38,942 nt of DNA from a virus. Both the position numbers and the translations under genes were made by a program. Position 1 is the first letter of the stretch, and each line of letters begins with the position of its first letter. Location of the stretch: the IMG/VR virus record IMGVR_UViG_3300010354_000216, positions 1 to 38,942 of that record. One strand, given 5' to 3'. Shown here piece after piece: positions 2,527 through 38,681 of this stretch. Below the pieces are notes generated by a model. The model worked only from the letters and a program-made list of their open reading frames with translations, ran no database searches and was not told the DNA's origin.

Positions 2527-2616
2527 CCAGGGGGGGTAAAGATTGTGGGGGTGCGTATAATAGGTCTTGGCGGACCTGTGGGTGCGCACCCTCACCACAA
2601 ACACGCCAAAATCAGT
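2527..2616 (+). promoter_or_regulatory. leader of the HNH gene: TATAAT box, hairpin and 12-bp palindrome
   Basis: This 90-base stretch has a perfect TATAAT at 2556-2561, a small inverted repeat just after it (AGGTC/GACCT arms) and a perfect 12-bp palindrome GGGTGCGCACCC at 2580-2591. No good TTGACA box lies 16-18 bases upstream of TATAAT. Together the elements suggest a promoter and structured 5' leader, and argue for ATG 2617 rather than GTG 2545 as the downstream start. Confidence 0.4.
2534..2541 (+). promoter_or_regulatory. GGGTAAA element, degenerate copy (1 of 11)
   Basis: GGGTAAAG between the gene ending at 2526 and the HNH gene. It matches seven bases of the recurring GGGTAAAACC element. 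A TATAAT hexamer follows at 2556-2561. Confidence 0.35.
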
Positions 2617-3381
2617 ATGTTAACTCAACAAGAGTTTGTTGAAGGCTGTCTAGCACAGTACGAAGAAATTTACCTGCAACCGGGAAACCCGGAAGACGGG
2701 GAATGGCATGAGTGTCATTACCCTAAACCTAAGTGTTTAGGTGGGACAGAAACGGTGTTCTTGCTCAAAAAACACCACGCAGTGCAAGGAGTGCTACAAT
2801 CAGAAGAGTATCAACACCCGTGTATTTACGGCTGGGAGAAAGCTTTTTTGCAAGGGGAAACGCTTGAGCGTTGGAAAAAATGGATGGCAGTCAAAGCTCA
2901 AGCCGCTGTAGACTATTGGCGCTCGGTGCCCGTCGAAGTAAAATCAGAATTAGGTAGGCAAGGTCAAGCTAAAATGACCAAAGAACAACTCAGAAGGGGA
3001 TGGGAAGGGATGCGCAACGGTATGTCCCCAGAACAAATAAGAGAACACGCAAAACACATGCACAATATAACTCCGGAAGAAAGGCGGGCGGCTGTTAAAA
3101 AAGCCACCGAATCCAACTTGAAAAGAAACCCTGATCATTTTTCGGACATGGCCAAAAAAGCGAGAAATAGTGAAAGTCCGGAACAAAAATCCGCCAGAGG
3201 ACGCGCTATTCCCGCTGAGGCTTCCGCTAGAGGCAGGGCACTCACCAACTCCAGGAAGTTTCGCTGTCTGGTTTCCGGTAAAGTAATGCCCGCAGGGCCT
3301 TTAAGCGCATATCAAAAAAGACTTGGAATAGACACCTCCCTCAGAGAGGAGGTTACCCCCTCGGACTCCGCGCTAAACTAG
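2617..3381 (+). CDS. HNH endonuclease-like protein (probable free-standing homing endonuclease)
   Basis: 254 aa from ATG 2617 (GTG 2545 in frame would add 24 residues that overlap the leader). Residues 29-55 have an HNH-type pattern: E32-C-H34, then PKPKCLGGT, then LLKKHHA with H53-H54. After YQHPCIYGWEKAFL comes a Lys/Arg/Glu-rich helical middle with repeated SPEQ/TPEE starts (about residues 115-200) that resembles NUMOD-like DNA-binding repeats. The end (RKFRCLVSGKVMPAGPLSAY, then a GIDTSL segment) recalls the tail of cyanobacterial and phage HNH proteins. HNH enzymes nick or cut DNA with one metal ion. It lies immediately before the topoisomerase gene, a common neighbourhood for homing endonucleases in phages. 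Activity is inferred. Confidence 0.6.
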   Translation: MLTQQEFVEGCLAQYEEIYLQPGNPEDGEWHECHYPKPKCLGGTETVFLLKKHHAVQGVLQSEEYQHPCIYGWEKAFLQGETLERWKKWMAVKAQAAVDYWRSVPVEVKSELGRQGQAKMTKEQLRRGWEGMRNGMSPEQIREHAKHMHNITPEERRAAVKKATESNLKRNPDHFSDMAKKARNSESPEQKSARGRAIPAEASARGRALTNSRKFRCLVSGKVMPAGPLSAYQKRLGIDTSLREEVTPSDSALN

Positions 3382-3385
3382 GTTT

Positions 3386-5386
3386 ATGGAAACACTGCAA
3401 CCAACCAGCCTCGTTAAACAAGTACAAGAAGATTATCTGGCATACAGTATGTCTGTACTGCTGGGCCGAGCCATTCCCGACCTTTACGATGGATTAAAAC
3501 CTGCTCAACGCAGAGTATTGCAAGTAATGTGGGAAGAAGGTTTGACCCCCGAAAAACGTTACGTGAAGTCAGCTCGCGTGACAGGTTTGACCATGGGACT
3601 CCTGCACCCTCACGGAGATTGCTACGGAACTTTGGTGAACATGGCTACCGATTGGAACAACAACGTTCCTTGGGTTGACGGACACGGCAATTTCGGTAGC
3701 ACTGTCGATAACGCGGCCAGTTCCAGATACACGGAATGCAAACTGCGCCCGTCTGCGGTTGACCTTCTGCTCCAAGACAAATCCGCTTGGGAAACCCGCG
3801 ATAACTACGACGGCTCGCGTCAAGAAGCCGTGCGCTTCAACAGTGCGCTGCCAACCGTTTTACTCAACGGCGATTCCGGCATTGCCGTAGGCTTTGCCAC
3901 CAAACTCGCTCCGCACAACCTTCGCTCCATTGTCGAAGCGATCAAACTCGCTTGCAAGTTTTCGAAACAAGGCGACATCGCTGCCGCCCAAGAAGTTTTG
4001 CTGCCGGACTTTCCTACGGGGTGCGACATTGTCGCTGATGCCGAACTTCAGAAGTACAAAGAGACCGGTGCGGGCAACATTCGCTGCCGCGCCAAAGTTG
4101 AAAAGGGCCTCCAGAAGAGAGACGGTCGCGCCAAAAACCGCGAAACTTTGACGTTCACCTGTTTGCCCCCAGGCGTCAACCCCGAGAAACTGGGTGAGCA
4201 AATTAAGTCCGAACTGGAGAAGGGTCGCATTACCGACGTGGCCGAAGTCATCGACGAGTCCGACCGCACCGGTGACCGAATCACGGTGGTTGCGAAAGCG
4301 GGTGCCAACATCGCCTCGGTAGAGTCTCAGTTGTATTCGTACACTGACCTCGATACCAAATACTGCGCAAAGACGTTGGTCATTGACGGTAGCAAACCTG
4401 TTGAGCTCAGCCCTACCGCAATTCTTCAAAAGTGGTTCGAATGGCGCATGGAGCGCCTGCTGGTGCGTTTCAAGCAGGAGCAAGAGATTGCCCGCAACCG
4501 TTTCCACATTGTCGAAGGTTTGCTGAAAGCGATTGACAAACTGGACGCAATTATCAAGACCATCCGCGCCTCTCAGAATAAGACGGAGGCGATGGTTGCT
4601 CTAACTTCTGCGCCGTTTAAGTTCACTCGTGCTCAAGCTGAAGCGATCCTGGAAATGCGGCTGCGTCAACTCACCGGGTTGGATGCGTCCGAGCTTGAGA
4701 CCGAAAAAGACGACCTGAAAGACAAGTTGGAGAAGCTTGAGGATCTAATCGAGCGACCCCAAGCACGGGCCACCTTCATCCACAAGCAGCTGGACCACCT
4801 GGGCAAGCGGCACGGAGAGGCCCGCAGGAGCGCCCTCGTGGAGGCTGCGCCGCTCACCGCAGGCCCCGGTCCGCGCACCAGCTCCAAGGCCCTTGCAGGG
4901 GCGCCTGCGGCCAAGCCCCGGTTCGTCAAAGTGGATGTCAAGAAGGGCATTGTTGACCAAGTTAAGGGGCCACGTGGCGCGATTGTCCTCGAAAAGTCGG
5001 ACAAACTGGTGCTGATGACTGAAGACGGAACTTTGAAGAAAGTTGCGTTCAACTTCAAAGGCACCGTGTCCACCGCTTACTCTCCGGTGGTTTTGGCTAA
5101 AAAAGAGTCGGAGGTGACTCAGCGCAAGTACCTGCTTGTTTTTGCTTTGGACGATCAGCTTAAGGCAATCACCCTTGAGGGTGCAGATCTTTGCCGGACA
5201 ACGAGCACTGGCAAGAAGTATTTGCCGGAAGGCGCAGTCATCAAATACTTCGGCGAAGGCCCCTACAATGTGCCGTTCTCATCCGCCCGTAAGAAAAAAG
5301 TTGCGCTGTCAGCCGCAACCGTGAAAGCCGGTAAACCCGGTGCAAAAGGAATCAAAGTGGCAAATCTTTCTGAGGTGAATCCGTGA
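3386..5386 (+). CDS. type IIA DNA topoisomerase, A (breakage-reunion) subunit, GyrA/ParC-like
   Basis: 666 aa. Conserved GyrA/ParC features in order: LVKQVQEDYLAYSMSVLLGR near the start, GLKPAQRRVLQ (about 37-46), HPHGD (74-78), GNFGS (101-105) and ASSRYTE with the DNA-attacking tyrosine at Tyr115, then the tower and coiled-coil region. A short C-terminal beta domain begins near residue 513 (RFVKVDVKKGIV). Known GyrA and ParC are longer (about 750-880 aa). No clear GyrA box (QRRGGKG) is visible, so relaxation or decatenation in a phage type II enzyme is likelier than supercoiling. The ATPase (B) subunit is not in the window. Odd features: the helix after HPHGD is two residues shorter than in bacterial GyrA, and codons at about 4750-4920 are far more GC-rich than the rest. 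The stop overlaps the next GTG. Confidence 0.9.
   Translation: METLQPTSLVKQVQEDYLAYSMSVLLGRAIPDLYDGLKPAQRRVLQVMWEEGLTPEKRYVKSARVTGLTMGLLHPHGDCYGTLVNMATDWNNNVPWVDGHGNFGSTVDNAASSRYTECKLRPSAVDLLLQDKSAWETRDNYDGSRQEAVRFNSALPTVLLNGDSGIAVGFATKLAPHNLRSIVEAIKLACKFSKQGDIAAAQEVLLPDFPTGCDIVADAELQKYKETGAGNIRCRAKVEKGLQKRDGRAKNRETLTFTCLPPGVNPEKLGEQIKSELEKGRITDVAEVIDESDRTGDRITVVAKAGANIASVESQLYSYTDLDTKYCAKTLVIDGSKPVELSPTAILQKWFEWRMERLLVRFKQEQEIARNRFHIVEGLLKAIDKLDAIIKTIRASQNKTEAMVALTSAPFKFTRAQAEAILEMRLRQLTGLDASELETEKDDLKDKLEKLEDLIERPQARATFIHKQLDHLGKRHGEARRSALVEAAPLTAGPGPRTSSKALAGAPAAKPRFVKVDVKKGIVDQVKGPRGAIVLEKSDKLVLMTEDGTLKKVAFNFKGTVSTAYSPVVLAKKESEVTQRKYLLVFALDDQLKAITLEGADLCRTTSTGKKYLPEGAVIKYFGEGPYNVPFSSARKKKVALSAATVKAGKPGAKGIKVANLSEVNP
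4750..4922. other. GC-rich patch inside the topoisomerase gene
   Basis: By hand count 94 of 120 bases at 4801-4920 are G or C (78%), against 25 of 60 (42%) at 4501-4560 in the same gene. The reading frame is intact and encodes the Ala/Gly/Pro/Arg-rich linker (residues about 456-512) between the catalytic core and the C-terminal domain. This looks like an imported or recently expanded segment. Confidence 0.75.
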
Positions 5387-5574
5387 ACGTAGACTTTGAA
5401 CGAGTTTTATTCTCCACCGTCGTTAACCCTGTTTACCGTTTGGTTCGGCGGACGACAATGGGCGCATGGATGTCCTTTGTAGTCTATCGCTGCTCTCCAT
5501 TTGAATGGAACCGCGTAAGGGGAAACTTTTGGGACACCCTCAACTCAGGGCACCTCGAGATGGGGGGGTCGTGA
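5383..5574 (+). CDS. small protein of unknown function
   Basis: 63 aa with a GTG start overlapping the topoisomerase stop (GTGA). Aromatic and basic (RRTTMGAWMSFVVYRCSPFEWNR); one moderately hydrophobic stretch is too short and polar for a confident membrane helix. Ends in MGGS, and the G-rich end of the gene (5563-5569) may act as ribosome binding site for the next gene. Function unknown. Confidence 0.5.
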   Translation: MNVDFERVLFSTVVNPVYRLVRRTTMGAWMSFVVYRCSPFEWNRVRGNFWDTLNSGHLEMGGS

Positions 5575-6155
5575 ACCCGGGTAAAATCCCTGCAGACAGG
5601 TTGAGCAAAGCTATGCAGATCACATATCCCGTCGCACGATTGCTTGCCGAACCTAAACTGTTCTATGCCATTGCTAACTATCTTGGCGGACCAGACGGGG
5701 CGACACTGAGAAGCGCCTTCTACGATCTCCTGGAGTACGGTGTCACAGATGGCGAAGATTACGAGTGCGAATTTGAGCCCGAGGAAGTTTGCTTTCAGGT
5801 GGAGGAAGACGGAGCAATCTGCAACATTCTTTTCGACACAGGCGTCATGTCTCGCATGGTTGCCGAGGACGGGGAAATTGTCTCCCAGATTAACGACGAA
5901 GACGAAATGATGGCCGCTTCCGTGTTTTATCAGCGGATCGTGAGCGCCTTAGAAGAGGCTGCTCCTCAATTTCAAGGTGACATTGCCCTGTGCTCTCCGC
6001 CGACACCTGGTAACGGTTTTCTTAAGTCGCCAGACGGAGAAGGTTTTGAGGGCAGCTTCCATCTGAAGGAAGACCCCGACAAGGTTTACGCCTTTCATGT
6101 CCAGGTTATAGATGCTGATGCCGACGAACTAAAAGCGACGATTCACCCGCTGTAA
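5571..6155 (+). CDS. acidic protein of unknown function
   Basis: 194 aa from GTG 5571, which overlaps the previous stop (GTGA) and follows a G-rich ribosome-binding-like stretch. ATG 5613 (180 aa) is an alternative and would leave the GGGTAAAATC element at 5579 outside the coding region. The protein is strongly acidic (YECEFEPEEVCFQVEEDG, INDEDEMM), begins with a helical segment (PVARLLAEPKLFYAIANYLG) and ends in beta-like sequence (DKVYAFHVQVIDADADELKA). No family recognised. Confidence 0.65.
   Translation: MNPGKIPADRLSKAMQITYPVARLLAEPKLFYAIANYLGGPDGATLRSAFYDLLEYGVTDGEDYECEFEPEEVCFQVEEDGAICNILFDTGVMSRMVAEDGEIVSQINDEDEMMAASVFYQRIVSALEEAAPQFQGDIALCSPPTPGNGFLKSPDGEGFEGSFHLKEDPDKVYAFHVQVIDADADELKATIHPL
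5579..5588 (+). promoter_or_regulatory. GGGTAAAATC element (2 of 11)
   Basis: Copy of the recurring element just after the stop at 5574. If the downstream gene starts at ATG 5613, the element is 24 bases upstream of it; if it starts at GTG 5571, it lies inside the coding region. Confidence 0.45.
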
Positions 6156-6165
6156 ACAAACAAGT

Positions 6166-6969
6166 ATGCAAGACAACCTACTGCTGGCGACCGAGAGTAT
6201 GAGGTCATCGGTTGCCGCCCTCAAAAAGAAGTCGTCTAATCTTAAGATCCATCTTGAGTTTCTAGACGCAGAGTTAGAGAAGATCAGCACCAAGTTTGAC
6301 AAAGTCGTCAACCAGGCCGAGATTTTTAAGGCCAAAGTGCAAAGAGAATCCAACCGAGAGATTCGCCGTCTTCAGCAAGAGATTATCAACCTGAAGAAAC
6401 AAATTCCGGGAGAAACCGCCAGCGGACCTGTTGCCTCTAACCAAGAACTTCAGGTAGCTTCGACTATCGCCATCTTCGAAAGTATCCTTCGTTTTATTTG
6501 CGAAGGCGCTGATGATTTCCGCCTGATGTCTTACTCCTACTTGTTTCCTGCCGTCTTCGAACGAGTGGTGACAGGAGAGCAAGAAGCCTACATGCTTGAA
6601 ACTTTGCCGGAGTCCGCTGCAGTTGTGATTCAACAAGGCAAAGAGTACGTTCAATGGGTTAGGAAAGATTGCGATGTCCACCTCACCGACCCTGAAGCCT
6701 GGAACGTTTACTCAGAGGAAATTTGTAACTGGTGGAGAAACACTGCGCTGCCTCTTATTTACGGCTCTCGCGACGATCGCTGGGACACGGATGAACCGTT
6801 GACCTTGCTTGAGATGCTGTCCTGGCGCGATGACCCCGCAGACCGCGCATTAATGATGCCCTACGCTTTCGATGCGTATGAAATCTACAAGAACAACAAA
6901 GACGCCGTGTTTGAAAGCACAGGACTGCGCGAGTTTGAACTCAGGATGTTCTCTTTCGGTGCCGGGTAA
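6166..6969 (+). CDS. coiled-coil protein of unknown function
   Basis: 267 aa, ATG 6166. Residues about 10-85 form a long heptad-rich coiled coil (LKIHLEFLDAELEKISTKF; IRRLQQEIINLKKQI). After a short GETASGPVASNQ linker comes a globular domain of about 170 aa rich in Trp and acidic residues (EEICNWWRNTALPLIY; WDTDEPLTLLEMLSW). The stop codon TAA is part of a GGGTAAAAC element. No known family is recognised. Confidence 0.7.
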   Translation: MQDNLLLATESMRSSVAALKKKSSNLKIHLEFLDAELEKISTKFDKVVNQAEIFKAKVQRESNREIRRLQQEIINLKKQIPGETASGPVASNQELQVASTIAIFESILRFICEGADDFRLMSYSYLFPAVFERVVTGEQEAYMLETLPESAAVVIQQGKEYVQWVRKDCDVHLTDPEAWNVYSEEICNWWRNTALPLIYGSRDDRWDTDEPLTLLEMLSWRDDPADRALMMPYAFDAYEIYKNNKDAVFESTGLREFELRMFSFGAG

Positions 6970-6972
6970 AAC
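6964..6972 (+). promoter_or_regulatory. GGGTAAAAC element (3 of 11)
   Basis: The element contains the TAA stop of the upstream gene and lies 20 bases before ATG 6993. The junction is AT-rich. Confidence 0.5.
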
Positions 6973-6992
6973 TTAAAAAATGCCTTGTAAAA

Positions 6993-7295
6993 ATGCACCC
7001 TCGCACAGTTCTAATGGCAGCTGCGGCAGGCGCCGTTGTTCCTACCGAGTATGGTAACATTTTGGATCGACCTACTTTCGGTTGGCTCAATCGCTCCAGC
7101 CAATACTACATGGGGCCTGACTCTCTCGGCGAGCCTTACCCTTTCAACCCCACAGTTCACCACTGGAAGGAAGGCGAGCCTTACTGGTCTCAAGGTCCGG
7201 TGAGAAACACCACCAACCAGTTTACTGGTTACCTGTACCCTCGCCCTGACACTGACACCCCACCTCCGTTGAGCGATCTGGTGGTCCCGGTCTGA
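6993..7295 (+). CDS. small Pro/Tyr/Trp-rich protein of unknown function
   Basis: 100 aa, ATG 6993. The first 16 residues (MHPRTVLMAAAAGAVV) are hydrophobic and Ala-rich, like a short signal or membrane-contact segment, but there is no clear cleavage site. The rest is rich in Pro, Tyr, Trp and Asn (STQYYMGPDSL-like, then GEPYWSQGPVRN, then YLYPRPDTDTPPP) with little predicted helix. An alternative ATG at 6980 opens only a 25-codon frame. Function unknown. Confidence 0.55.
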   Translation: MHPRTVLMAAAAGAVVPTEYGNILDRPTFGWLNRSSQYYMGPDSLGEPYPFNPTVHHWKEGEPYWSQGPVRNTTNQFTGYLYPRPDTDTPPPLSDLVVPV

Positions 7296-7296
7296 G

Positions 7297-7323
7297 TTTA
7301 CGACCCCCGTAACCCACTATACT
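7297..7323 (+). promoter_or_regulatory. possible promoter of the DNA polymerase gene
   Basis: The 50-base gap before the polymerase holds TATACT at 7318-7323 and a weak TTTACG at 7297-7302 with 15 bases between. The -35 match and spacing are poor. The start at 7346 has no Shine-Dalgarno sequence. Confidence 0.3.
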
Positions 7324-7345
7324 AAAATTACGACAACCTAACGCC

Positions 7346-11667: not shown

Positions 11668-12023
11668 TGGCACGACGTAGAGCAAAAAGCACCGATGGCA
11701 CGTTTATTGCCGACAATCCTGACACCCCAGGTGTCAACGAGGCTTGGGAAGAAAGCGCCCCCGGCGATCAATTGACTCACCTTCAAAACCCGGAAGAACA
11801 AGACGCTTCTAAACTTGCACCGGCTCAACCCAAAGAGGAAATTGAGACCAATGTGCGCAAAAAACTCGGGCGCAGGGCCGACGAAGACCCGTTTATCCCC
11901 TCTCATCCCGCGCAAGTGCTGGAAGACGCCAGAAAGATTGCCGAAGAAAAAGGCTTTCAGATGAACCGTGGTACCGAAGTTGGTGCTCGATTGATTGCCG
12001 CTGCTCGTAACAGAGGACTATGA
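11667..12023 (+). CDS. small charged protein, probably virion-associated
   Basis: 118 aa. Basic N-terminus (MARRRAKSTDGTFIADNPDT), an acidic, Gln-rich middle with little order, and a C-terminal region with helix (PAQVLEDARKIAEEKGFQM) and ARLIAAARNRGL. Similar short proteins occur between head-tail genes in several phages, but I cannot name a family. Overlaps the genes on both sides, so it belongs to the tail-completion operon. Confidence 0.6.
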   Translation: MARRRAKSTDGTFIADNPDTPGVNEAWEESAPGDQLTHLQNPEEQDASKLAPAQPKEEIETNVRKKLGRRADEDPFIPSHPAQVLEDARKIAEEKGFQMNRGTEVGARLIAAARNRGL

Positions 12024-12382
12024 AAACATTCCCCTTTCCGCCTGGTATGGATTGGGGTAAACTCGGCTTCACGCTGTACTCAAACTCACTGAGTTATCGA
12101 GAGGTTTTGGAGCAAAACCCGCAGTGGACTGTCACCGAGTTGCCTCCCATTGGCGCTGTTTTAGAGGTTACCGGAGGGCTCGAAACAGGAAGACTGCAAG
12201 GCAGTCCCCTTTCTTTTGGGGCCAACTCCGTTGGGGTGACAGATGCTATTTTTCCGTTTGACACGGTGGATAGCTATTTATCATCGTTAAACAAGTATAG
12301 CGCCGCTGCTCTTAAATCAGTTGAAAAGGTTAACGGCCTGTCAATGGTGAGTACTCCTGCAATCACTGGGTCAGAAGGGTAA
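12020..12382 (+). CDS. tail protein X / LysM-like protein
   Basis: 120 aa, ATG 12020 overlapping the previous stop. The first 50 residues (DWGKLGFTLYSNSLSYREVL, then EQNPQWTVTELPPIGAVLEV) match the layout of the P2 gpX/LysM-like tail protein family: a helix, a LYG-like turn, LxxNP and a hydrophobic end. The rest is Ser/Gly-rich with no motif. Such proteins are found in the baseplate and tail hub of contractile phages. The stop codon TAA is within a GGGTAAAAC element. Confidence 0.55.
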   Translation: MKTFPFPPGMDWGKLGFTLYSNSLSYREVLEQNPQWTVTELPPIGAVLEVTGGLETGRLQGSPLSFGANSVGVTDAIFPFDTVDSYLSSLNKYSAAALKSVEKVNGLSMVSTPAITGSEG

Positions 12383-12385
12383 AAC
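12377..12385 (+). promoter_or_regulatory. GGGTAAAAC element (4 of 11), start of tail sheath leader
   Basis: Contains the TAA stop of the upstream gene, 108 bases before the sheath ATG. The leader 12383-12484 holds no gene; it ends with a strong ribosome binding site, AAGGAGG at 12460-12466. Confidence 0.5.
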
Positions 12386-12484
12386 TCACTGTCTAGACCC
12401 GTCTCTTTGGCCTACGGGCACCACAGCTGGATTCATCCTCGCCAGCACAAAGAGAAGGAAAAGGAGGAACATTTTCTGAAAAAC

Positions 12485-15400
12485 ATGGCAACTTTCTCCC
12501 TCGGTGGCGGCGTAACTCCTGGCGCACCCGGCGTTTACATTAATGAAAGAGCTGGCAACGTTGCTTCTGCAGCAGTGGCCGACTTTAGCACAACCTATCT
12601 TCTGGTGGAAGCGCCGGAAAACGCATCTACAACGGTGTTTCCGTTCAACAAACCCATTGCCATCACATCACTAAGTGATTACAAGGCTTTGGTGGGTGGC
12701 ACAGTCCCCACCGGTCGCATCACTAAGCTTAGCTACAACGTTGTTGACGCCTTCTTCAAGAATGCCCAAGTCGGTGACCTGCGCGTGGTCAGAGTTGGCA
12801 CCCCCAACCAAATCGTTGAGATTGAAATTTTCCCTTCTGGTGAAAAGATCGGCACCTCCGGTTTGCCTTCTGCCCTTCAGGCCGGCAACGTAGTTTACGC
12901 TCAAATCGTACTGAACGGCACCCGTCTAGTGGCTGGAGACGGTTCCACCGGTTACAGCGCTGAAGGGGAATGGCTGGGTGTACCCGTCACGATCCCTGTG
13001 GATTATGTGGCTGGTGATGAAGCGAACAACCGTCGCATTTCTGCCGCTATTGTTAACGCAATTGCCTCCGCGATCGAGTCCAACCCTAGCATTGCAAGCT
13101 CAGTCTACGTTCGTAGCTCCGGTTTGGTCGTTGACCTTGACCCCACCTCCAACTCTCAGAACGGTTTCATCAACGTCGCCGCAACCACTTTTGGCGGTAC
13201 CGTTTCTGTTGTAACACAGGTGACTCCTGTCGGCTCTATTCAAGTTTTGACTCAGGGCACTTACGACATTCAAAACATTGTTGGCCTTCAGCAAAACGCT
13301 GTCCGTGTTCCTCAGGACTACATCCAGTGCCTGAATACCGCTTTCGACGGTCAGCGCGACCAAGGTTACGTTATCACCCCTACAGCCTACGCCCAGTTTG
13401 ATGCGGCTGGTAGAGCTGCTGTGGGAGCTGCGGGGACCGCTCTGGCGGCAGACAACAACTACAAGTGGATGCACTTGGCAGATTGCGGTCCTTTCCTTGT
13501 TACCGACATTAACGCCTACAGCAACTTCACCCCTCATGAGGCTGCCGAAGACTTGACCACCGGCAGTAAGTACCTGGTCGATAATGCTGTTTACACATGG
13601 GTTGGCTCCGATGTTACTTACACTCGCCTGAACCACCAAACTCTGGTTGGCGGGTACAACGCTCTCCCCGCAGTTGCTGAATCGGCGAACACGGTTGCAG
13701 ACGGACAAAAAGTTGGTCTGCTTGACTCAGCTGATTTTACATTCACGTCCACCGGTGGTTCCGCCAACATCGGTAAGTTTACAGTCAGCGGCAACGTCTG
13801 GCCAGTTGATTACCAAATTCAAGAAGTTACCTTGAGCAACAAAGGTGCAGACTTCTCCAGCTTGCCTGACTCCGTTTACGTGATTGCTCCTCCGGCTGAT
13901 TCTGCCGTCTACGGTCCTTACCCTACAGAGGTGTACATCGCCCTCACCGCTGCTGATGCCACTGCAATCTTGACTGAGGTTTTGGCGTCCGGGGGCTCTG
14001 TCAACCAGACAACTCTTCCTGCCGGTGCTTTTAGCGTTGGTTCTCCTACCGGTTCAACCGTTAAGGCAACCTACACCACTCCCGCCTGGAACCTTCCTGT
14101 TGAGATCAACGGTCAAACTTCTAACCTGATTGAGAACATTTCCGGTGCCACCGCTGGAGTAAACACCCTTCACCTTCCTGGAACTTTGCAGAACCCTACC
14201 GACACTTACCGTCTCGGTTTTGTTTCTCGCACTCTGTTCAACCCCTCCGCTCAAATTTCTACTGGCACTGGCACCTATGCCGGCAAAGCAGTGTTTGACG
14301 TTGCTAGCCATGGCTTGCAAACCGGTTACAAGGTGTTCTTCACCCAACCCGTGCTCGATGGCATGACGACTTTCCTCGCAGGAAGCAACCGCAATGCGGT
14401 GCAAGCTTACTACGTGAAAGTCATTGACGGAGATACTTTTGTTCTGGCTAACAGCCTGTCCAATTTCTCCGCCGGCTCTTACCTTTCTGCTCCCACTGGT
14501 TCTGTCTCCACTAAACCAACTATTCTGTACACTTCCACTCTCGGCGGCAGCACAACTGCTGTGAACTTGAGTGAGTTGGCCTCCGTTTCTTTGATTCGTG
14601 GCCGCAAGTACGGATTTGCGAGCGGAACTATTGCCAACCAGGCTGCCAACGCAACTTCCGCCCCCACTCCGTCTAGCTCCAACCCCACCGTTTCGGTGTT
14701 TTTGAACGACAGTCGCACCATTCTGGGTGCTGAGCAAATCTTCCCTTACGGTGAAGATACAAGTGCAGGTTACTTGGACGGTTTGCAACTGGTTAGCCCC
14801 GGTTCTTCTACTACCGTTACGGCAAACTTCATTACAACCCCTACTGTTGACCAATCTTACGCCTCCGAAGCGTATATTGTGCCCGCAATTAACGCAATTT
14901 TCGGCGGTGAGTTTGACCCTACTGCCACCGGTTCTCTGGCGCTGGCCACCAGCTACGTTACCGCAGTGGGTCTTGCAAACGGCGACAATGCCGCTGACCT
15001 TCAAGGCGAAATCACTTATCTTGACGGTGTGTATTTCGACGTTGTTGACTCCGGTTACGCGCCCGATGGCACTACCGCAGTTGTTAACGGTGATCGTATC
15101 GCAGTTGTGTTCAACGGTTCCTCTTACGGTTGGGTTGTTGTTCCTGCTGCAAGTCTTGGTGGAGATTTGACCTCTGTTGGTCGCGTTCTTTACGGAGCCC
15201 AAGTCGAACTGTCTCTTACTCCGGAGCAAACCCCTCCTGCCAACCTCTGGCGCTTTGATGCGGTGACTTCTACCGAAATCATTGACCTGGCTCTGCGTGG
15301 AGTGGGCTTCAACGGCGAGCCCCAGGCCGTCTTTGTTGAGGCTGGTGTGGATAACGTCACTCGCTTGTACGATGACAGCCAAAGATACTTCAACCCTCAA

Positions 15401-16730: not shown

Positions 16731-16740
16731 GGGTAAAACC
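16731..16740 (+). promoter_or_regulatory. GGGTAAAACC element (5 of 11) before the portal gene
   Basis: Perfect copy in the 41-base gap between the wedge and portal genes, 30 bases upstream of ATG 16770. TATAAA follows at 16742-16747. Confidence 0.55.
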
Positions 16741-16769: not shown

Positions 16770-18446
16770 ATGGCGAAAAGATTTAAGACTTCCCCTGTAC
16801 CCAACGGTGAGGTCGCCTCCTACACCAGCGACCCGTATAATCTTAGTTCGATTTACATGTTCGGGTCCAGTTCCCCTTTTACGGGGACTGGTAACACGAT
16901 TGTAAGACCTTCGGACGATTTGCTGATCTCCAAGGGCGGCAATCGTGCGCTGTCGGTCTATCAAAGATTATTGAATGACGAACAAGTCCAATCCTGTTTC
17001 TCTAAGTTACTTCAAGAAGTGACTTCGAGGCCCTGGTACGTAGAGGAATACAGCAACAAACCAGGAGACTTAGCGGTTAGAGACTTTGTAGCCGAAATTT
17101 TGGAAGAGATTGATGTAGACAACATTTACAAAGGTTTGGGTGAGGCGCTGATCGTTGGGTTCAGTGTTGGTGAAGTGATGTGGAAGAAAACCAAACGCGG
17201 GGTGGTCCCCTTTGACTTCCGTATGAGAGATCAGCGCCGGTTTGTGTTTCAGGAGTCGGAGGATTCGCAAACAGGTTTCGCCATGCGCTGCCTCACCTTT
17301 AATCGCATGTTTGAAGGCGTAGAACTCCCTGCACGCAAATTTATTGTCAACCGGTTCTGGGCTCACCATAACGGTGACCCTTATGGTTCATCTCTCGGAA
17401 GAATTCTTTACCCCTTGGTAAAATTTCGTCGCAGAGCGATTGAGTCCTACGTGCTCTACGGTGACCGTTATGCTACGCCTACTGCAGTAGCAACTGCCCC
17501 CCTCAGCGCATCCACAAAAGAACTGGAGAATCTATACAGTTTGCTCTCCAACTTGTCTCAGGAAACTGCCGTCATTCTACCAGAAGGCTACCAGCTCGAT
17601 TTTGCCAATCCTTCGGGGAGTCCAGATGTATTCAAAAATTTAATTGACTACATTGACAAAGAGATTAGCGTGCTAATTTGCGGAGAAAACGAGGCTGGAC
17701 AAGCTGAGGCTGGCTCTCGCGCCTCCTCTCAAGTGGCTAACTTGGTGCGCATTGTTAAAGCTTCTGAGCTGTCGGAAACAATCTCTCAGGTTTTGACTCA
17801 ATCTCTAGTTCGCTGGATTGTGGACCTGAACTTTGGTGTCGATGTCGCCGCTCCCACGATTAGTCGGGAGTTTCGCATCGAAGAGTCAACCATTACTGTG
17901 CCTGACCTTTCTTTGTTAATTCAGTCAGGGTTTAAACCCAAGAAAGAGTGGGTTGAACGGCATTTCAAAGTGGAACTGGAAGATGAGGAGCCAGCTGGTC
18001 CCGGGGAAGAGGAAGGTGAAAAAACCACTTATGACCCCGAGGCAGATGCCAACCTGTTTGAGAACACTTTTGGTGCTGAAGCTGCTCCTGCGGAAGAAAC
18101 TGCTCCGGCTGAAGTTGCTCCTGCTGAAGCTGCTCCTGCGGAAGAAACTGCTCCGGCTGAAGTTGCTCCTGCTGAAGCTGCTCCTGCGGAAGAAGCTGCT
18201 CCTGCTGAAGCTGCTCCTGCGGAAGAAGCTGCTCCTACGGAAGAAGTCAGCTTGGAAGACCTGTTAGGGGAAGAGGAGGAGGAAGAAGGGGAGCCCACCG
18301 CTGAAGCTGCTCCGGCTGAAGAAGTCGCTCCAACTGAAGAAGTCAGCTTGGAAGACCTGTTAGGGGAAGAGGAGGAGGAAGAAGAAGATAATCTGGAAAA
18401 CTTTTTAGTCGAGGAGGAAACCACAGATACGGAGGGTAAAACCTGA
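16770..18446 (+). CDS. portal protein (Mu gp29/DUF935-like) with acidic repeat tail
   Basis: 558 aa. Residues about 1-405 match the DUF935/Mu gp29 portal family: VYQRLLNDEQVQSCFSKLL, then TSRPWYVEEY, GLGEALIVGFSVGEVMWK, NRFWAHHNGDPYGSSLGRIL, then a segment with AVILPEGYQLDF and LICGENEAGQAEAGSRAS. The portal is the dodecameric ring through which DNA enters and leaves the capsid. The last 155 residues are an added low-complexity tail of PAEEAAPAE and EVAPAE units and long Glu runs, with two copies of a TEEVSLEDLLGEEEEEE block. Such an acidic tail is not standard for portals; a role in binding scaffold or terminase is inference. A GGGTAAAACC element ends the coding region. Confidence 0.8.
   Translation: MAKRFKTSPVPNGEVASYTSDPYNLSSIYMFGSSSPFTGTGNTIVRPSDDLLISKGGNRALSVYQRLLNDEQVQSCFSKLLQEVTSRPWYVEEYSNKPGDLAVRDFVAEILEEIDVDNIYKGLGEALIVGFSVGEVMWKKTKRGVVPFDFRMRDQRRFVFQESEDSQTGFAMRCLTFNRMFEGVELPARKFIVNRFWAHHNGDPYGSSLGRILYPLVKFRRRAIESYVLYGDRYATPTAVATAPLSASTKELENLYSLLSNLSQETAVILPEGYQLDFANPSGSPDVFKNLIDYIDKEISVLICGENEAGQAEAGSRASSQVANLVRIVKASELSETISQVLTQSLVRWIVDLNFGVDVAAPTISREFRIEESTITVPDLSLLIQSGFKPKKEWVERHFKVELEDEEPAGPGEEEGEKTTYDPEADANLFENTFGAEAAPAEETAPAEVAPAEAAPAEETAPAEVAPAEAAPAEEAAPAEAAPAEEAAPTEEVSLEDLLGEEEEEEGEPTAEAAPAEEVAPTEEVSLEDLLGEEEEEEEDNLENFLVEEETTDTEGKT
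18073..18392 (+). repeat. tandem and dispersed repeats coding the portal's acidic tail
   Basis: GCTGCTCCTGCGGAAGAA-type units alternate in tandem (period about 48 and 30 bases) over 18073-18250, and a block of about 50 bases coding for EEVSLEDLLGEEEEEE occurs twice, from 18239 and from 18335. High identity at DNA level suggests recent slippage or recombination. Confidence 0.8.
18434..18443 (+). promoter_or_regulatory. GGGTAAAACC element (6 of 11)
   Basis: Perfect copy straddling the last codons of the portal gene, 16 bases upstream of the protease ATG. Confidence 0.5.
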
Positions 18447-18449
18447 GTA

Positions 18450-20615: not shown

Positions 20616-21350
20616 ATGGATCTCCTCTCCCTAGTAAGCACTGTAACGAAGCGGAGGGGAGATTACTTCTCCCAAGCCAAAACTTTGGCTCGCAAGTACA
20701 AGACTCAACCTACTCTTGAAGACAACATGTTTAAAGAGGCTAAAGCGATTGTTTTAGCCTTGAGAGACAAACAAATTAAGTGGGAAGAGTACCAGCGGTC
20801 TTTGGTAGACAAAACTTTGATCTCTGCCTTAACCGCTGTTTACCTGGGTGCAAAAGACGCTCAACCTCAAGCCAAGATGGAAAAGGCTTGGCCCACTGTT
20901 GTCGGCGACATGCTTCCTCCCTTGATCAAATTTCTTGGAGAGACAAAAGCAAGGTTAGATGCTGGCGTTCTTCGAATTGGCGATAACACAGTGGACTTTG
21001 CGGATTACATCCCCGACGACATTCTGGACGACCCGGCTTACGACACGGATAGTCCTGCAATGCAAGCCGCTATTAACGCCGGTAACGGAAGAAGTTGGCC
21101 CGCACTTTTTGGTCGAGTCGTGAGGTATCTGTCTACTCCCACGTTTTCTTTCTTCAACCTCGGAGAATATTTCGTGCGACAAGAGCAAGGATTCGGTGAA
21201 ATGCGACGTGCCGCAAAACGCGACAAACGTACCTGCCCGGACTGTAAAACTTGGGACGCCCAAGGTTGGCAACCCATTGGATCTTTACCGATGCCCGGAA
21301 GAGGTTGCCGGTGCTATGATCGCTGTCGTTGCGAAATTGAATACCGCTAG
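20616..21350 (+). CDS. head morphogenesis protein (Mu gpF / SPP1 gp7-like)
   Basis: 244 aa, ATG 20616, three bases after the protease stop. N-terminal helical region (ETKARLDAGVLRIGDN after DMLPPLIKFLG), then a central domain, then a C-terminal Cys cluster: C207-P-D-C210, and GCRCYDRCRC with C231, C233, C237, C239, followed by EIEYR. The phrase WQPIGSLPMPGRGCRC is characteristic of the minor head protein gpF/gp7 family, which enters the procapsid with the portal. The cysteines could bind zinc. The stop abuts a GGGTAAACC element. Confidence 0.75.
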   Translation: MDLLSLVSTVTKRRGDYFSQAKTLARKYKTQPTLEDNMFKEAKAIVLALRDKQIKWEEYQRSLVDKTLISALTAVYLGAKDAQPQAKMEKAWPTVVGDMLPPLIKFLGETKARLDAGVLRIGDNTVDFADYIPDDILDDPAYDTDSPAMQAAINAGNGRSWPALFGRVVRYLSTPTFSFFNLGEYFVRQEQGFGEMRRAAKRDKRTCPDCKTWDAQGWQPIGSLPMPGRGCRCYDRCRCEIEYR

Positions 21351-21358
21351 GGTAAACC
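21350..21358 (+). promoter_or_regulatory. GGGTAAACC element (7 of 11), leader of the decoration gene
   Basis: Overlaps the last base of the upstream stop and is 80 bases before ATG 21430. Nothing else is seen in the gap 21351-21429, and the start has no Shine-Dalgarno sequence. Confidence 0.45.
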
Positions 21359-21429
21359 TTAGCAGCTTAACTGGGTGAAAAACAAGTCCCAGAGCAAACA
21401 AACTTGAAGTCCATTTCTTAAAGACAAAC

Positions 21430-23517: not shown

Positions 23518-23537
23518 CAAGGATCTAATAACTACTG

Positions 23538-23562
23538 CCCCCTCCTCGCGAGGGGGTTTTTT
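23538..23562 (+). terminator. intrinsic (rho-independent) terminator
   Basis: CCCCCTC and GAGGGGG arms form a 7-bp stem with a 5-base loop, followed at once by six T. It lies 20 bases after the tail tube stop and closes the capsid/tube transcription unit. This is the only clear terminator I see in the window. Confidence 0.92.
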
Positions 23563-23570
23563 CATGGGCA

Positions 23571-23580
23571 GGGTAAAACC
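23571..23580 (+). promoter_or_regulatory. GGGTAAAACC element (8 of 11) just after the terminator
   Basis: Perfect copy eight bases after the terminator T run and 27 bases before ATG 23607. Its place between a terminator and the next gene is the strongest positional argument that the element is a promoter. Confidence 0.6.
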
Positions 23581-28181: not shown

Positions 28182-31091
28182 ATGACCAACTACACAGCCA
28201 CTTTTGACCCCACTCAGTTCGAGTACACTGGACTCAAAAGCTTCTACCTGTCACCAGATCAAACCTCGCAAGTTAACACAACCATAGCACGTGTCAGCGG
28301 TCAACTAGATTGGCTTGCTCAACTAACCGGTTGGAACGGTCCTAACTATTGGACTAACTTGCCTGTTACCCTCAACCAGAAACGTCAGTTGATTGGGGGC
28401 TCTTTCGGGGTATTTAACGGTTACGTTTACCCTGAGGTTAAAGAGATCCGAAATTGGAGTAACGAGGTTGTTGTCAAGGCTGACTCCTCCTTAGATGGTG
28501 CCCAACGGTTTCTGTTGAAAAATCTTGAGCTTACACTTGAGTCTTTCAGCAAAGAGGGGGAGAATTATGTGCTCAATTTCGGTGAAATGAGCGACGAATT
28601 TCTTTCATTGCTGGCGGCAGGGGAGCAACTTAAGACCAGAGTCAACTCATTGCTACCTGCGCCTTTTTCTCGTAATGTGCCCGGTGCCTCAGCAGATCGC
28701 AGCTTTCACTGTCAGGCCGACGGCGGGTCTTTGCTCTTGTTTCCTTTGTATGATAAGCAAGGTTTGCAGCCTTACGCTTTCAACACTTTGTACCAAGGGG
28801 CCACCTACTTCTTCGATCAGTGCATTTATTTGGCAAGGTTCGACACTTTGACCGAGGTGGTGCCTGCATCCTACGATGATAACTTACAGCTTTGGTACTT
28901 CACGGTGCCAACACTGTCTTTAGATGATCAACTTGGTGGTGTAGCGTCTCTAGTGTGGCCTTACGCCGACACTTCCGCTTCCAACCCAGCCACTTTAACC
29001 GTAAACGTAATCCAGTGGTCAGACCCTTCTGACTGGAAACATGATGACGTGGTTGACTATTACACCGGCGCTTGGGGTAACAAAGGAGGGTTCTTGCCCT
29101 TCAACTTTGTTTTTGACTCTTTGTCTCTACACGGATTCAATGAGCGCACCTCAATTCGAACAAACTTGATTGAGAGGGAAGTTGCTTTCGACACCCTTCT
29201 TAATTTCGTGTATTCTCAACAGGCGTCCGTTGACCCCTCAGGTCCAGCCGGTCCGCAGCAAGCCAGTGTTTGGTGGAACCCCACCAACGGGCAATTTGCC
29301 GTTTGGCGAGGAGACACCTGGGAAGGGGTGACTTATTCTGACACCCTCCCTAATGGAATGGAGTCACAAGTGATTTTTGCAAACTCCACTGACTTTCTGG
29401 CCGGAGCTGGCAATGTGCAACCGGGTGTTTTGGTGCAAATCTTCAACGCAAACGGTTTAAGTCAAGATGACCCCATCCTTGGCATCCAGGGTGCCTTGGG
29501 TGGTTCAGGAGTTTTGTATACGTATTTCGACGAACATTTGAGTTGCTGGGTTCCCGCAAGGTTTCTATATCAAAACGAGTCAGGATTCGACACAGATGCG
29601 CTGGCTCTACCGTACGGGGTGGATGTCGTCATCTCTAACGCTAATTTGCTGAGTCCGTCCGGAATCAACTACCTGATTGAGAATTTGGGTGTGACGATTG
29701 GGGAAGACTTGCCGGTTCTGTTACGCCGCAGTGACCGCAATATGTGGCAACTGTCTCCGTTTAACGGGATGAAGTACATTGGCAAAACCCGGTTGTACCA
29801 GAGTTTTACTTCAGGTTCTCAGGTGGACGGAGAGTTGTATTGGAACTACGAGGAGGACCAATCCATTGCAAGAAGGGCGAGCGTGTTTTATTACAATCGC
29901 TGGGAGAAAATTGGCGGAGATTGGGTGTTGGAAGGAGATTGGGTAGACTTAAACACCGGGGTTCAAGTTGCACCACCGGAGGAATACGTTAACTTCAACG
30001 CCATCTCCGTGTATTGCGAAGGAGAGAAGTTCCCGAACAACGGTGGCACCATTCAAAGTGACTCGTATTCTCTGGGCTTAGAGATGAACGCAAACGGTCA
30101 ATTCATCTTCAGATACGCGCCAAAAACATTTGAGGCCGGGGTGAGATTCCCTAGGGTGACAATTAGCGACTCCTTGGTGTACGGTTTCACCCATGACATC
30201 ACAGACCTTGTATTTAGCGGGGTCGTCCACTACATCTCGCCAAACGTTGTGGACAGCGAAACTCTCTTACGATTGTGGAAAACACAGCAAATGTGTGCAG
30301 CGGGGACCCTGCAACACCTTGTCGAAGACAATTACATCAACCCCTTGATTGCCGACCAAAATAATGGTCCTGGCTCCCCCACCTGGGATCGATTCTTTTT
30401 GCGTCTTCCCCCTTCCTATGAGCGTAACGGAGCGGAATGGCAAAAGGTTAATCTGGTTTGTCAGAACTTTGCTTACTACGGGTCCAGCGTTGCTCCTGAC
30501 AGAACAGTGTGCCCTGAGACTGAAGTGTTACCTGAGGTTTACGAGGCCGCTTGCTTATTTGGCTCGTCTACGGAAACTAAGTTAATCTACTCTGAACCTT
30601 ACTTGTACTCTAATGTCGCTTTCTCCGCCCTGGCTATCTCGGAAGCATTTGAGAACTCTGGTGTGTACCCCACTCAAGATGTCCTTGCCGATGATTTCTA
30701 CGAGGCCAAACTCGTTGACTACGACCCCCTTCACGTCCGTCAAGTTCAGGGCAACGGTGACTGGGAAGGCATCTACTTGAGAGAAAATGAGGTTGGGAGC
30801 CTTAGCGGCTTTACTACAAACGACGTTGAAAATCGATCCCTCCTTCCGGTGGAAGCTCCTCTTTGGGACGCAAGTATCTACAAACTGCCTCCATCTTGCG
30901 TTGTTGCAGAAGGAACCTACGATGTGGACGCCAATCAATTCAAGATCGGATACGCTTATTTTGCGGCCGATTTATCGGCGGCCGAAGACGGTTTCTTTGA
31001 CATCGAACAAGAATCCTCGTGGGTTGAGCCAGAAAATTTGCAGCGTTCTTTATACCTAAGACGTAGGACACCGATCCAAGTTGCAGGGTAA
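28182..31091 (+). CDS. large virion protein of unknown function (probable baseplate or fibre protein)
   Basis: 969 aa, ATG 28182, one base after the previous stop. Beta-rich and aromatic, no signal peptide or membrane segment. A segment VWWNPTNGQFAVWRGDTWEG (about residues 365-384) has the same LWWN-x-x-N-x-x-x-x-VW-x-x-x-x-W pattern as the repeats of the fibre-like gene at 33679. SNANLLSPSGINYLIENLGV and VDGELYWNYEEDQSIARRAS follow. The stop codon TAA is inside a GGGTAAACC element. Confidence 0.6.
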   Translation: MTNYTATFDPTQFEYTGLKSFYLSPDQTSQVNTTIARVSGQLDWLAQLTGWNGPNYWTNLPVTLNQKRQLIGGSFGVFNGYVYPEVKEIRNWSNEVVVKADSSLDGAQRFLLKNLELTLESFSKEGENYVLNFGEMSDEFLSLLAAGEQLKTRVNSLLPAPFSRNVPGASADRSFHCQADGGSLLLFPLYDKQGLQPYAFNTLYQGATYFFDQCIYLARFDTLTEVVPASYDDNLQLWYFTVPTLSLDDQLGGVASLVWPYADTSASNPATLTVNVIQWSDPSDWKHDDVVDYYTGAWGNKGGFLPFNFVFDSLSLHGFNERTSIRTNLIEREVAFDTLLNFVYSQQASVDPSGPAGPQQASVWWNPTNGQFAVWRGDTWEGVTYSDTLPNGMESQVIFANSTDFLAGAGNVQPGVLVQIFNANGLSQDDPILGIQGALGGSGVLYTYFDEHLSCWVPARFLYQNESGFDTDALALPYGVDVVISNANLLSPSGINYLIENLGVTIGEDLPVLLRRSDRNMWQLSPFNGMKYIGKTRLYQSFTSGSQVDGELYWNYEEDQSIARRASVFYYNRWEKIGGDWVLEGDWVDLNTGVQVAPPEEYVNFNAISVYCEGEKFPNNGGTIQSDSYSLGLEMNANGQFIFRYAPKTFEAGVRFPRVTISDSLVYGFTHDITDLVFSGVVHYISPNVVDSETLLRLWKTQQMCAAGTLQHLVEDNYINPLIADQNNGPGSPTWDRFFLRLPPSYERNGAEWQKVNLVCQNFAYYGSSVAPDRTVCPETEVLPEVYEAACLFGSSTETKLIYSEPYLYSNVAFSALAISEAFENSGVYPTQDVLADDFYEAKLVDYDPLHVRQVQGNGDWEGIYLRENEVGSLSGFTTNDVENRSLLPVEAPLWDASIYKLPPSCVVAEGTYDVDANQFKIGYAYFAADLSAAEDGFFDIEQESSWVEPENLQRSLYLRRRTPIQVAG

Positions 31092-31094
31092 ACC
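31086..31094 (+). promoter_or_regulatory. GGGTAAACC element (9 of 11)
   Basis: Contains the TAA stop of the upstream gene and ends 13 bases before ATG 31108. No Shine-Dalgarno sequence is present between the element and the start. Confidence 0.5.
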
Positions 31095-31107
31095 TAATAA
31101 AAACACC

Positions 31108-33635: not shown

Positions 33636-33639
33636 TTAC

Positions 33640-33649
33640 GGGTAAAACC
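33640..33649 (+). promoter_or_regulatory. GGGTAAAACC element (10 of 11)
   Basis: Perfect copy, four bases after the preceding stop and 30 bases before ATG 33679. Confidence 0.55.
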
Positions 33650-33678
33650 AATCATACGCACGAGTGTTGCCAGGGTGA

Positions 33679-34983
33679 ATGGCTTATAATTTCCCGTCCA
33701 ACCCAACGCTTAATCAAACTTACTCGTACAACGGTAGAGTTTTTGTTTGGAACGGGGTGCAATGGACTGCTATCTCAGCTGCCACGTCTACCGCCGTCCC
33801 CGTTTTTGTTTCGGCCTCGGCACCTTTGACTCCGAAGGTTGGGGCACTCTGGTACAACACCAATAACCAGGTTTTGTACATTCGCGCCCTCGACGAAAGC
33901 GATGTTGTTGCCTGGGTCCCCCTTACACAAACTCAAGTACCGCCCGCGTCCGTCCTTGTATCGGTGTCACCACCCCCTAACCCGGTTGAAGGAGAACTTT
34001 GGTTCAACCCCTCGAACGCAGAACTTAGGACGTGGGTTGTCAACCTGGGTGGGTCAGAGTGGGCATTGATTTCAACTGGCAACCCTACTCCCCAGCCGAT
34101 CAATGTAACCGTTTCTGCTACCTCTCCTTTAAATCCCGAGGTCGGGGAGCTTTGGTTTGACACTGTAAAGTCAAATCTTTACGTTTATGTTTCAAACCCG
34201 GGTGGAAATCAATGGGAAGTGGCTAACACGGCTGCTTTGCCCCCTCAGACTGCTCCTGTTACGGTGTCTTCCACTGAACCGGCAAACCCGATTGTGGGGG
34301 ATTTGTGGTACAATCCTATCTCTAATTCTTTGGCCGTGTGGGTGTCAAACCCCGGTGCAGGTAACTGGGAAACTATAACGCAGAACAACCCCGACCCGTT
34401 GACGGCAGATGTCGTTATCTCCTCAACCCCGCCGACAGGAGTTCAGCCGGGGGCTTTGTGGTACAACTCAATTGACCTTAATCTGTACATCTATGTGGAT
34501 AACCCTGGGGGAGCCTACTGGGCCTTAGCCAACCCCTACAATATCCCGCCGGAGGCGCCCACTATCCAAGTTTCATCAACCCCGCCGGCAAATCCGGTCG
34601 AAGGAAGTCTGTGGTACAATAACACCAACTCCGACTTCAATATTTGGTATGAAGATCTGGACGGGGGGCAATGGGTGTCCGTTGTGCCTTACCCTTTAAA
34701 CACGATCAGCGACCAGGGAGGGGTTTTCTACGGGCCGATTTATGCCGAGTACCCTGTACCAAATGACCCGAGAGCTTTCATCACAGTGGGTTGGTTTGAA
34801 GACAACGCAGGCCCGGCTCTTTTGAGCCCTTACTTACCTGGTAAAGGCTCCTTAGTCACTGCTTCGGCACCAGGTGTGCCTGTTCCTTTGGCTGTAGGGG
34901 GAGACGGAACTTTCTTGAAAGCCAACTCCAGTGTAAGTGAAGGCATTGGTTGGTCGAATCTAGTGGATTGCGGAGACTACTAA
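33679..34983 (+). CDS. repeat-rich virion protein, probable tail fibre/receptor-binding shaft
   Basis: 434 aa, ATG 33679. The first 33 residues (SNPTLNQTYSYNGRVFVWNG) are a degenerate unit; six repeats of about 50 aa follow, each with VSxTxPxNPxxGxLWYN, then L-x-(V/I)-(Y/W)-V-x-x-x-GG-x-x-W-x-x, for example SSTPPANPVEGSLWYN. The repeats differ at DNA level, so they are old. They end near residue 352, and a non-repeat end of about 80 aa with GPIYAEYPVPNDPRAFITVG follows. Beta-repeat shafts of this type are typical of phage fibres and surface adhesins. Related single units occur in the gene at 28182. Confidence 0.65.
   Translation: MAYNFPSNPTLNQTYSYNGRVFVWNGVQWTAISAATSTAVPVFVSASAPLTPKVGALWYNTNNQVLYIRALDESDVVAWVPLTQTQVPPASVLVSVSPPPNPVEGELWFNPSNAELRTWVVNLGGSEWALISTGNPTPQPINVTVSATSPLNPEVGELWFDTVKSNLYVYVSNPGGNQWEVANTAALPPQTAPVTVSSTEPANPIVGDLWYNPISNSLAVWVSNPGAGNWETITQNNPDPLTADVVISSTPPTGVQPGALWYNSIDLNLYIYVDNPGGAYWALANPYNIPPEAPTIQVSSTPPANPVEGSLWYNNTNSDFNIWYEDLDGGQWVSVVPYPLNTISDQGGVFYGPIYAEYPVPNDPRAFITVGWFEDNAGPALLSPYLPGKGSLVTASAPGVPVPLAVGGDGTFLKANSSVSEGIGWSNLVDCGDY
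33778..34705 (+). repeat. six about 150-base coding repeats (LWYN repeats)
   Basis: Six consecutive units of about 150 bases within the fibre-like gene, each encoding a conserved G-x-LW(Y/F)(N/D) core and a final W. DNA identity is modest, protein pattern strong. Confidence 0.75.
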
Positions 34984-36206: not shown

Positions 36207-36208
36207 TC

Positions 36209-36361: not shown

Positions 36362-36660
36362 AAAAGACCAGCAAAACAATTCTGGAGCAGAAAGAGGAGC
36401 TGGCAGCTGACGCGCTGTTCCTCGCCAATGAAGCCTTGCGCGAGCTCAGCTCCAGCTTAGAAGAATGCTCTACACGAGATCTCGTCTCCATTTTTAACTC
36501 GGCCGTCAAGGCTCACCGCGACATTGTTTCTGACATTGTTGCCCTCACAGAAAAAGAGTCAAAAACTGAGAAAGAGTTGGCCCCCAGCTACAAGAGCGAG
36601 GCTGACAAGCTTCTCGAAAACATCTGCAATCTGAATAGATCTAATGAGACCGATCATTGA
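36358..36660 (+). CDS. candidate small terminase subunit
   Basis: 100 aa, ATG 36358. Entirely helical (ILEQKEELAADALFLANEAL; FNSAVKAHRDIVSDIVALTE), basic N-terminus (MKKTSKT), overlapping the large terminase start by 17 bases. Size and position fit a small terminase, the ring that recognises phage DNA for packaging, but there is no recognised DNA-binding helix-turn-helix, so this is positional inference. Confidence 0.5.
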   Translation: MKKTSKTILEQKEELAADALFLANEALRELSSSLEECSTRDLVSIFNSAVKAHRDIVSDIVALTEKESKTEKELAPSYKSEADKLLENICNLNRSNETDH

Positions 36661-38377: not shown

Positions 38378-38429
38378 CAGGCGATTCAGCAACCGCCTAA
38401 AAAGTTGTAGTCAACTTCACAACCATGTT

Positions 38430-38621
38430 ATGGCTATTCAACCCGTAGATCGCAACGAAGAGCTCATGTCTCAGGATTTCGGGACAGTGTGTCTAATCAC
38501 TGACCCTGTGGCAGAGCGTTACTTGTCTAGAGCGGCTAGGAACAACCCGGATCAAAAGAAGTTCAAAGAGTTTTGTGGAGGAGCCGGTGGCTGGACGGAT
38601 TACACCGAGCGCTGGCACTGA
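38430..38621 (+). CDS. small protein of unknown function
   Basis: 63 aa from ATG 38430; the upstream part of the frame overlaps the terminase gene and is ignored. Sequence MAIQPVDRNEELMSQDFGTV, then helix (VAERYLSRAARNNPDQKKFK) and FCGGAGGWTDYTERWH. No family recognised. No ribosome binding site is apparent. Confidence 0.5.
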   Translation: MAIQPVDRNEELMSQDFGTVCLITDPVAERYLSRAARNNPDQKKFKEFCGGAGGWTDYTERWH

Positions 38622-38672
38622 AAGTTACTGGTCCAGGCAAAACGAAAAGGGTCAATGGTGGACACTCTGACC

Positions 38673-38681
38673 GGGTAAAAC
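38673..38681 (+). promoter_or_regulatory. GGGTAAAAC element (11 of 11)
   Basis: Copy in the 82-base gap 38622-38703, 22 bases before ATG 38704. Nothing else is seen in that gap. Confidence 0.5.

Follow-up and report, generated by a model that had tools for sequence, protein, structure and literature searches.

The DNA studied here is the linear IMG/VR virus record IMGVR_UViG_3300010354_000216, a fragment of 38.9 kilobases (kb) that was analyzed over its full length of 38,942 nucleotides (nt) and is called the window below. Its genes include those for tail sheath, portal, protease, major head protein, topoisomerase, and DNA polymerase. The subject of this study is a short element with the core GGGTAAA, and with GGGTAAAA as its strong form, that recurs at gene boundaries of the window. 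Among isolates, Synechococcus phage S-CBWM1 (NC_048106; Aokuangvirus; complete genome, 139 kb) is the closest; its portal protein is 64% identical in the best segment. S-CBWM1 is treated as one clade with many IMG/VR relatives from freshwater and estuaries, and S-TIM5, S-N03, S-CBS2, and contig G014 were compared as outgroups.

The original prediction listed eleven copies of the element on the plus strand, and all of them were recovered (Table 1). Across the window, GGGTAAA occurs 17 times, 14 times on the plus strand and 3 times on the minus strand. Dinucleotide shuffles yielded 4.63 ± 1.82 occurrences on both strands (maximum 9). An order-2 Markov model of the plus strand predicted 1.9 occurrences of GGGTAAA (maximum 6 in 400 simulations) and 0.53 of GGGTAAAA (maximum 3), of which 8 were observed; exact GGGTAAAAC(C/T) was found seven times on the plus strand and never on the minus strand. 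The anticipated excess over shuffled sequence and the same-strand bias are thus both present. The core holds as described, but the bases that follow it vary: the copies at 21350 and 31086 read GGGTAAACCT, and that at 2534, the least certain copy, reads GGGTAAAGAT. The coding-sequence copy noted at 1043 was found as well; it is not the only one, since 12055 and 36095 on the plus strand are also coding. The three minus-strand occurrences (17407, 28426, and 31809) all lie within coding sequence, and the coding copies on both strands are compatible with chance.

As had been noted, three copies (6964, 12377, and 31086) contain the stop codon of the upstream gene, and the copy at 23571 stands between a terminator-like hairpin with a T-run and the next gene. 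The distances to the following start codon, previously given as 6 to about 100 nt, do vary, but part of the spread is an artefact of called gene starts, because homology to S-CBWM1 begins at 5616 (ATG 5613) and at GTG 18471. The open reading frames (ORFs) 5505-6155 and 18447-20612 therefore likely start at these codons and not at the first in-frame start codon. After correction of these two genes, nine copies lie 22-39 nt ahead of a start codon. Of the 14 plus-strand copies, nine are found in the zone 15-45 nt ahead of a start, which makes up 2.8% of the window (binomial P ~2e-11, which is nominal because the zone was picked after the data were seen). The argument that variable spacing speaks against a translation signal was partly wrong. 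Even so, a signal of the ribosome-binding type, which would suit the preference of the copies for 29-39 nt before starts, is very improbable: the element lies beyond the range of a ribosome-binding site, at 22 to about 100 nt, and precedes only a subset of genes, mostly the first in blocks.

Table 1. Copies of the element and other features in the window, with corresponding sites in S-CBWM1.
Position (strand)	Core or sequence	Upstream or overlapping feature	Downstream gene and distance	S-CBWM1 site
2534..2543 (+)	GGGTAAAGAT; weak or doubtful, fourth A absent	ORF end 2526	ORF start 2545; called start only 11 nt away	
5579..5588 (+)	GGGTAAAATC		ATG 5613 (homology-supported; S-CBWM1 gp122 homologue), 34 nt	
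6964..6973 (+)	GGGTAAAACT	includes TAA stop of ORF 6166-6969	ORF 6993-7295, 29 nt	
7297..7323 (+)	TTTAC-N16-TATACT; contrasting promoter-like sequence		DNA polymerase ATG 7346, 22 nt	
12377..12386 (+)	GGGTAAAACT	includes stop of ORF 12020-12382	tail sheath ORF 12407-16078, 30 nt	
16731..16740 (+)	GGGTAAAACC		portal gene 16770-18446, 39 nt	orthologous site 127025
18434..18443 (+)	GGGTAAAACC	within final portal codons	head maturation protease GTG 18471 (homology-supported), 37 nt	orthologous site 128436
21350..21359 (+)	GGGTAAACCT; long-leader exception		ORF 21430-21891, 80 nt	orthologous site GGGTAAAATT at 130696
23537..23563 (+)	intrinsic-terminator-like hairpin and T-run		directly 5' of the 23571 copy	
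23571..23580 (+)	GGGTAAAACC	hairpin 23537-23563	ORF 23607-24107, 36 nt	orthologous site 135703
31086..31095 (+)	GGGTAAACCT	includes stop of ORF 28182-31091	ATG 31108, 22 nt	same junction, 53039
33640..33649 (+)	GGGTAAAACC		ORF 33679-34983, 39 nt	same junction, 61932
38673..38682 (+)	GGGTAAAACT		ORF start 38704, 31 nt	same junction, 65887
	GATGTGAAAGATT..ACTGTCCCATGG repeat			L008:26547, 26636; L009:15860, 46365, 46454; L010:26614, 32317, 35659

The expected recurrence in related phages was confirmed. In S-CBWM1, GGGTAAAA occurs 33 times in the forward and once in the reverse direction. Among 37 relatives found through the portal, GGGTAAA occurs 165 times forward and 16 times reverse; it is the top over-represented 7-mer and among the two most strand-biased. 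Counts in coding and reverse direction for whole relatives include 25/0, 24/0, 22/2, 18/1, 18/3, 22/0, and 31/0, and contigs located through a sigma gene share this bias. No bias was seen in the outgroups (forward/reverse: G014, 3/3; S-TIM5, 8/4, with 7/3 for the reversed-pattern control; S-N03, 0/2; S-CBS2, 1/0). When k-mers upstream of genes were counted de novo in five genomes of the clade, GGGTAAA and GGGTAAAA ranked first as 7-mer and 8-mer, respectively, with 79 observed occurrences of GGGTAAA against 6.8 expected. In eight genomes, 105 copies of GGGTAAAA lie in the 8% of sequence just past gene ends, 66 lie elsewhere, and 7 are on the opposite strand. Seven window copies were matched at the same gene junction of S-CBWM1, with flanks too diverged to be aligned by eye (ungapped identity ~5-18 of 40 positions), and the copy preceding the portal gene is present in many relatives with shifted spacing.

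The orientation of the element follows that of the gene. Copies on the minor strand lie 11-32 nt ahead of minor-strand ORFs, by the ORF calls of this analysis (L092:2640, L201:1361, L165:16477, and L166:15179). At the last two sites, an opposite-strand gene of ~270 codons (MEKI.IDIG start) has its own GGGTAAAA 15 nt before the called start. A strand-oriented DNA signal apart from transcription, serving packaging, recombination, or replication orientation, would also produce a strand bias, and the bias alone does not discriminate because genes and motif share a strand. The restriction of the copies to gene boundaries and their flipping with opposite-strand genes leave such a signal scarcely credible, and a Chi-like or packaging motif was dropped because the copies flip with gene orientation.

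In S-CBWM1, the element stands ahead of the sheath, portal, protease, major head, tape measure, and tail fibre genes. By our own gene classification, it precedes 9 of 20 named virion genes and 2 of 21 replication or metabolism genes (P 0.012). The region from 27 to 47 kb of S-CBWM1 holds no GGGTAAAA.

The internal structure of the element was examined across the clade. Single-base variants of GGGTAAAA are mostly at background in the eight genomes; GGGTATAA and GGGTAAA(C/G/T) are tolerated. The preceding base is A at half of the sites, and the two following bases are pyrimidines. An A is found 14 and 15 nt past the first G at 56% and 49% of 246 sites, compared with 34% and 28% of opposite-strand controls. 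If this downstream A were position +1, TAAAAY would occupy -12 to -7, as a -10 element, and GGG about -15 to -13, as in an extended -10; 5' leaders of ~15-25 nt would then precede most start codons. A conserved -35 (GTTT or TTGAC) was sought upstream of the element and none was found; for a SigB-type -35, with its N12-17 spacer, GTTT lies within -24..-9 at only 18 of 246 sites. The terminator-like words CTTTTT and GGCTTT are enriched in the upstream flanks.

Taken from sequence comparison, these features make it very probable that GGGTAAAA forms the core of a -10-only, phage-specific promoter of mainly late class, most likely used by the host RNA polymerase core with a phage-encoded sigma factor. 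This is the candidate late promoter of the original prediction, and it is the best-supported reading because the junctions are kept amid diverging flanks, the orientation follows the gene, the flanks are terminator-like, and the spacing suits a -10 element and a start site; the strand bias across the clade adds to this. An element acting in RNA, as an endonuclease processing site or another factor-binding site in the messenger RNA leader, would agree with its invariable messenger sense and position within leaders. It is nonetheless improbable, as terminators enriched upstream would leave little RNA for processing, a base preference is seen 14-15 nt downstream with nothing else conserved, and many copies share bases with the stop codon of the preceding gene.

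Two sigma genes, of the gp045 and gp055 types, are present in S-CBWM1 and in most relatives large enough to tell. The best NCBIfam model for the gp045 type is SigB/SigF/SigG (TIGR02980), matched over profile positions 3-142 of 227 only; at 53 bits against a curated cut-off of 234, and without the whole profile, the protein falls short of family membership. Region 2 is retained in 21 of 21 gp045-type orthologues. In a structural model of gp045, residues 14-152 align with sigma2-sigma3 of known sigma factors, a region-3-like segment comprises helices 103-143, and the C-terminus is a short three-helix unit, in which neither sequence nor model revealed a recognisable region 4.2 helix-turn-helix. 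No cellular relatives of the gp045-type sigma were found in GTDB contigs by tblastn. The gp055 type matches sigma regions 2 and 4, without region 3. Of the two, the gp045 type is the better candidate for the reader and, in our estimate, somewhat probably that reader, because regions 2 and 3 without 4.2 are what a -35-less promoter with a GGG-extended -10 predicts. The host core enzyme would carry this sigma and read the extended -10 without a -35. Sorting the two sigmas by co-occurrence failed, since the contigs that seemed to lack gp045 (G021-G023) stop short of its expected place downstream of the nrd genes.

Several points weigh against this promoter assignment. About one third of the major-strand copies lie beyond the boundary zone, in part owing to crude ORF calling. 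In S-CBWM1, the element also stands ahead of some transfer RNA and non-structural genes, so it is not purely late. Neither sigma gene lies within the 38.9 kb window fragment. SigB/F/G proteins usually require a -35. The gp045 model is of modest confidence (predicted local distance difference test score, pLDDT, 68), and the evidence for a lost region 4.2 comes from sequence and this model. Both sigmas co-occur, so genetics cannot tell them apart.

The DNA polymerase gene was predicted to be without the element, and this is the case, because a promoter-like sequence of another class, TTTAC-N16-TATACT, is there instead. In nine genomes of the clade, TTTAC-N16-18-TA(T/A)(A/G)(A/C)T occurs 106 times forward and 14 times reverse. 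It precedes the polymerase gene in the window, the gp055 sigma gene and psbA in S-CBWM1, and the thyX region; S-CBWM1 sites of TTTAC-N16-18-TATAMT are 101581, 111145, and 87410. This class may be that of a host sigma or of gp055. At positions 2675, 11186, and 23051 of S-CBWM1, a repeated CGCCCTTTAC-N18-CTAAGCTGACT..AGTCAG combines a promoter-like sequence of the second class with a small palindrome behind it, which could be an operator.

T4-type late promoters consist of TATAAATA and are used with gp55, gp33, and the gp45 clamp. As predicted, the element is not of this type: in the eight genomes, TATAAATA was found 3 times at boundaries, 6 times elsewhere, and 11 times in reverse, against 105/66/7 for GGGTAAAA. 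The two share a short -10-like 8-mer before virion genes, the lack of a -35, a similarly placed TAAA, and, as proposed here, a dedicated phage sigma. They differ in that the TA-rich start gives way to GGG, that TATAAATA shows no enrichment, that a SigB/F/G-like sigma with regions 2 and 3 is proposed, and that a T4-type clamp domain was not detected. The clamp family PF02916 was found in none of the 8 records searched, including complete S-CBWM1, while the positive control S-N03 was recovered (E 3e-7); some records are fragments, and a very divergent clamp could escape. The T7-like RNA polymerase family PF00940 had no match in 8 records, in a search without any responding positive control.

The same promoter might instead be read by the gp055-type sigma acting as a T4-gp55-like late sigma. 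This type is universally present alongside the motif, its phage-database matches are mostly sigma-annotated genes of T4-like cyanophages, and T4 late promoters are also -10-only. We consider this unlikely, as the gp055 type keeps a region-4 helix-turn-helix and is without region 3, the normal reader of an extended -10; the true -35 of the TTTAC class better suits a region-4 sigma or host sigma; the T4 clamp family was not found in the records searched; and the S-N03 sigma examined resembles a full-length group 2 sigma and not gp55. For the gp045 type, a more far-reaching proposal, which we put forward tentatively, is that in this cyanomyovirus lineage a SigB-like sigma that has lost region 4.2, the domain that reads a -35, may run the late programme by reading the extended -10 GGGTAAAA alone, with no sliding-clamp activator of the T4 kind; late transcription without a -35 would then have been reached by a separate path.

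Other known promoters resemble the element in part. The Bacillus subtilis SigB promoter is GTTTAA-N15-GGGTAT (PMC9847131); like it, the element has GGGTA at -10, and the curated family nearest to the gp045-type sigma is SigB/SigF/SigG, whereas the GTTT -35 is missing, GGGTAAAA is far commoner than GGGTATAA, and the sigma is without a recognisable region 4.2. As in the sigma-70 extended -10 (TGnTATAAT), bases 5' of the -10 replace the -35, but with GGG for TGn and TAAAAY for TATAAT. Ma-LMM01 is also a cyanophage and shows distinct temporal classes; it differs in having no gp55 homologue and in its late promoters, which were inferred to resemble host SigA promoters (PMC5780444). The kind of promoter would be ordinary; what is new is the consensus, the proposed SigB-like sigma without region 4.2, and that no T4-type clamp was found. 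A literature search for GGGTAAA returned unrelated matches only, and no paper describing S-CBWM1 promoters was found among those searched.

The element would amount to a late-promoter code that can be tested in S-CBWM1 and its relatives, cyanophages that have received little study and in which one genome would pair two promoter classes, GGGTAAAA and TTTAC-N16-18-TATAMT, with two phage sigmas and the host sigma. How a sigma lacking region 4.2 can drive an entire late programme would find a natural test here, and the element would allow operons and start codons to be predicted directly from the sequence of related contigs.

Two minor observations concern relatives of the window. Contig set G024 (L213-L215) carries the most diverged gp045-type sigma (DFSRMVRVPRWV), and GGGTAAA is not enriched there; ATAATAA occurs ahead of genes, several with GTTCAC ~20 nt upstream (e.g., 18675, 19749, and 24896). 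This is suggestive of a joint change of sigma and promoter, although G024 spans just 49 kb and was not used as evidence. In S-CBWM1, a repeat around GATGTGAAAGATT..ACTGTCCCATGG that is absent from the window was found in eight copies (Table 1), three of which lie directly 5' of GGGTAAAACC.

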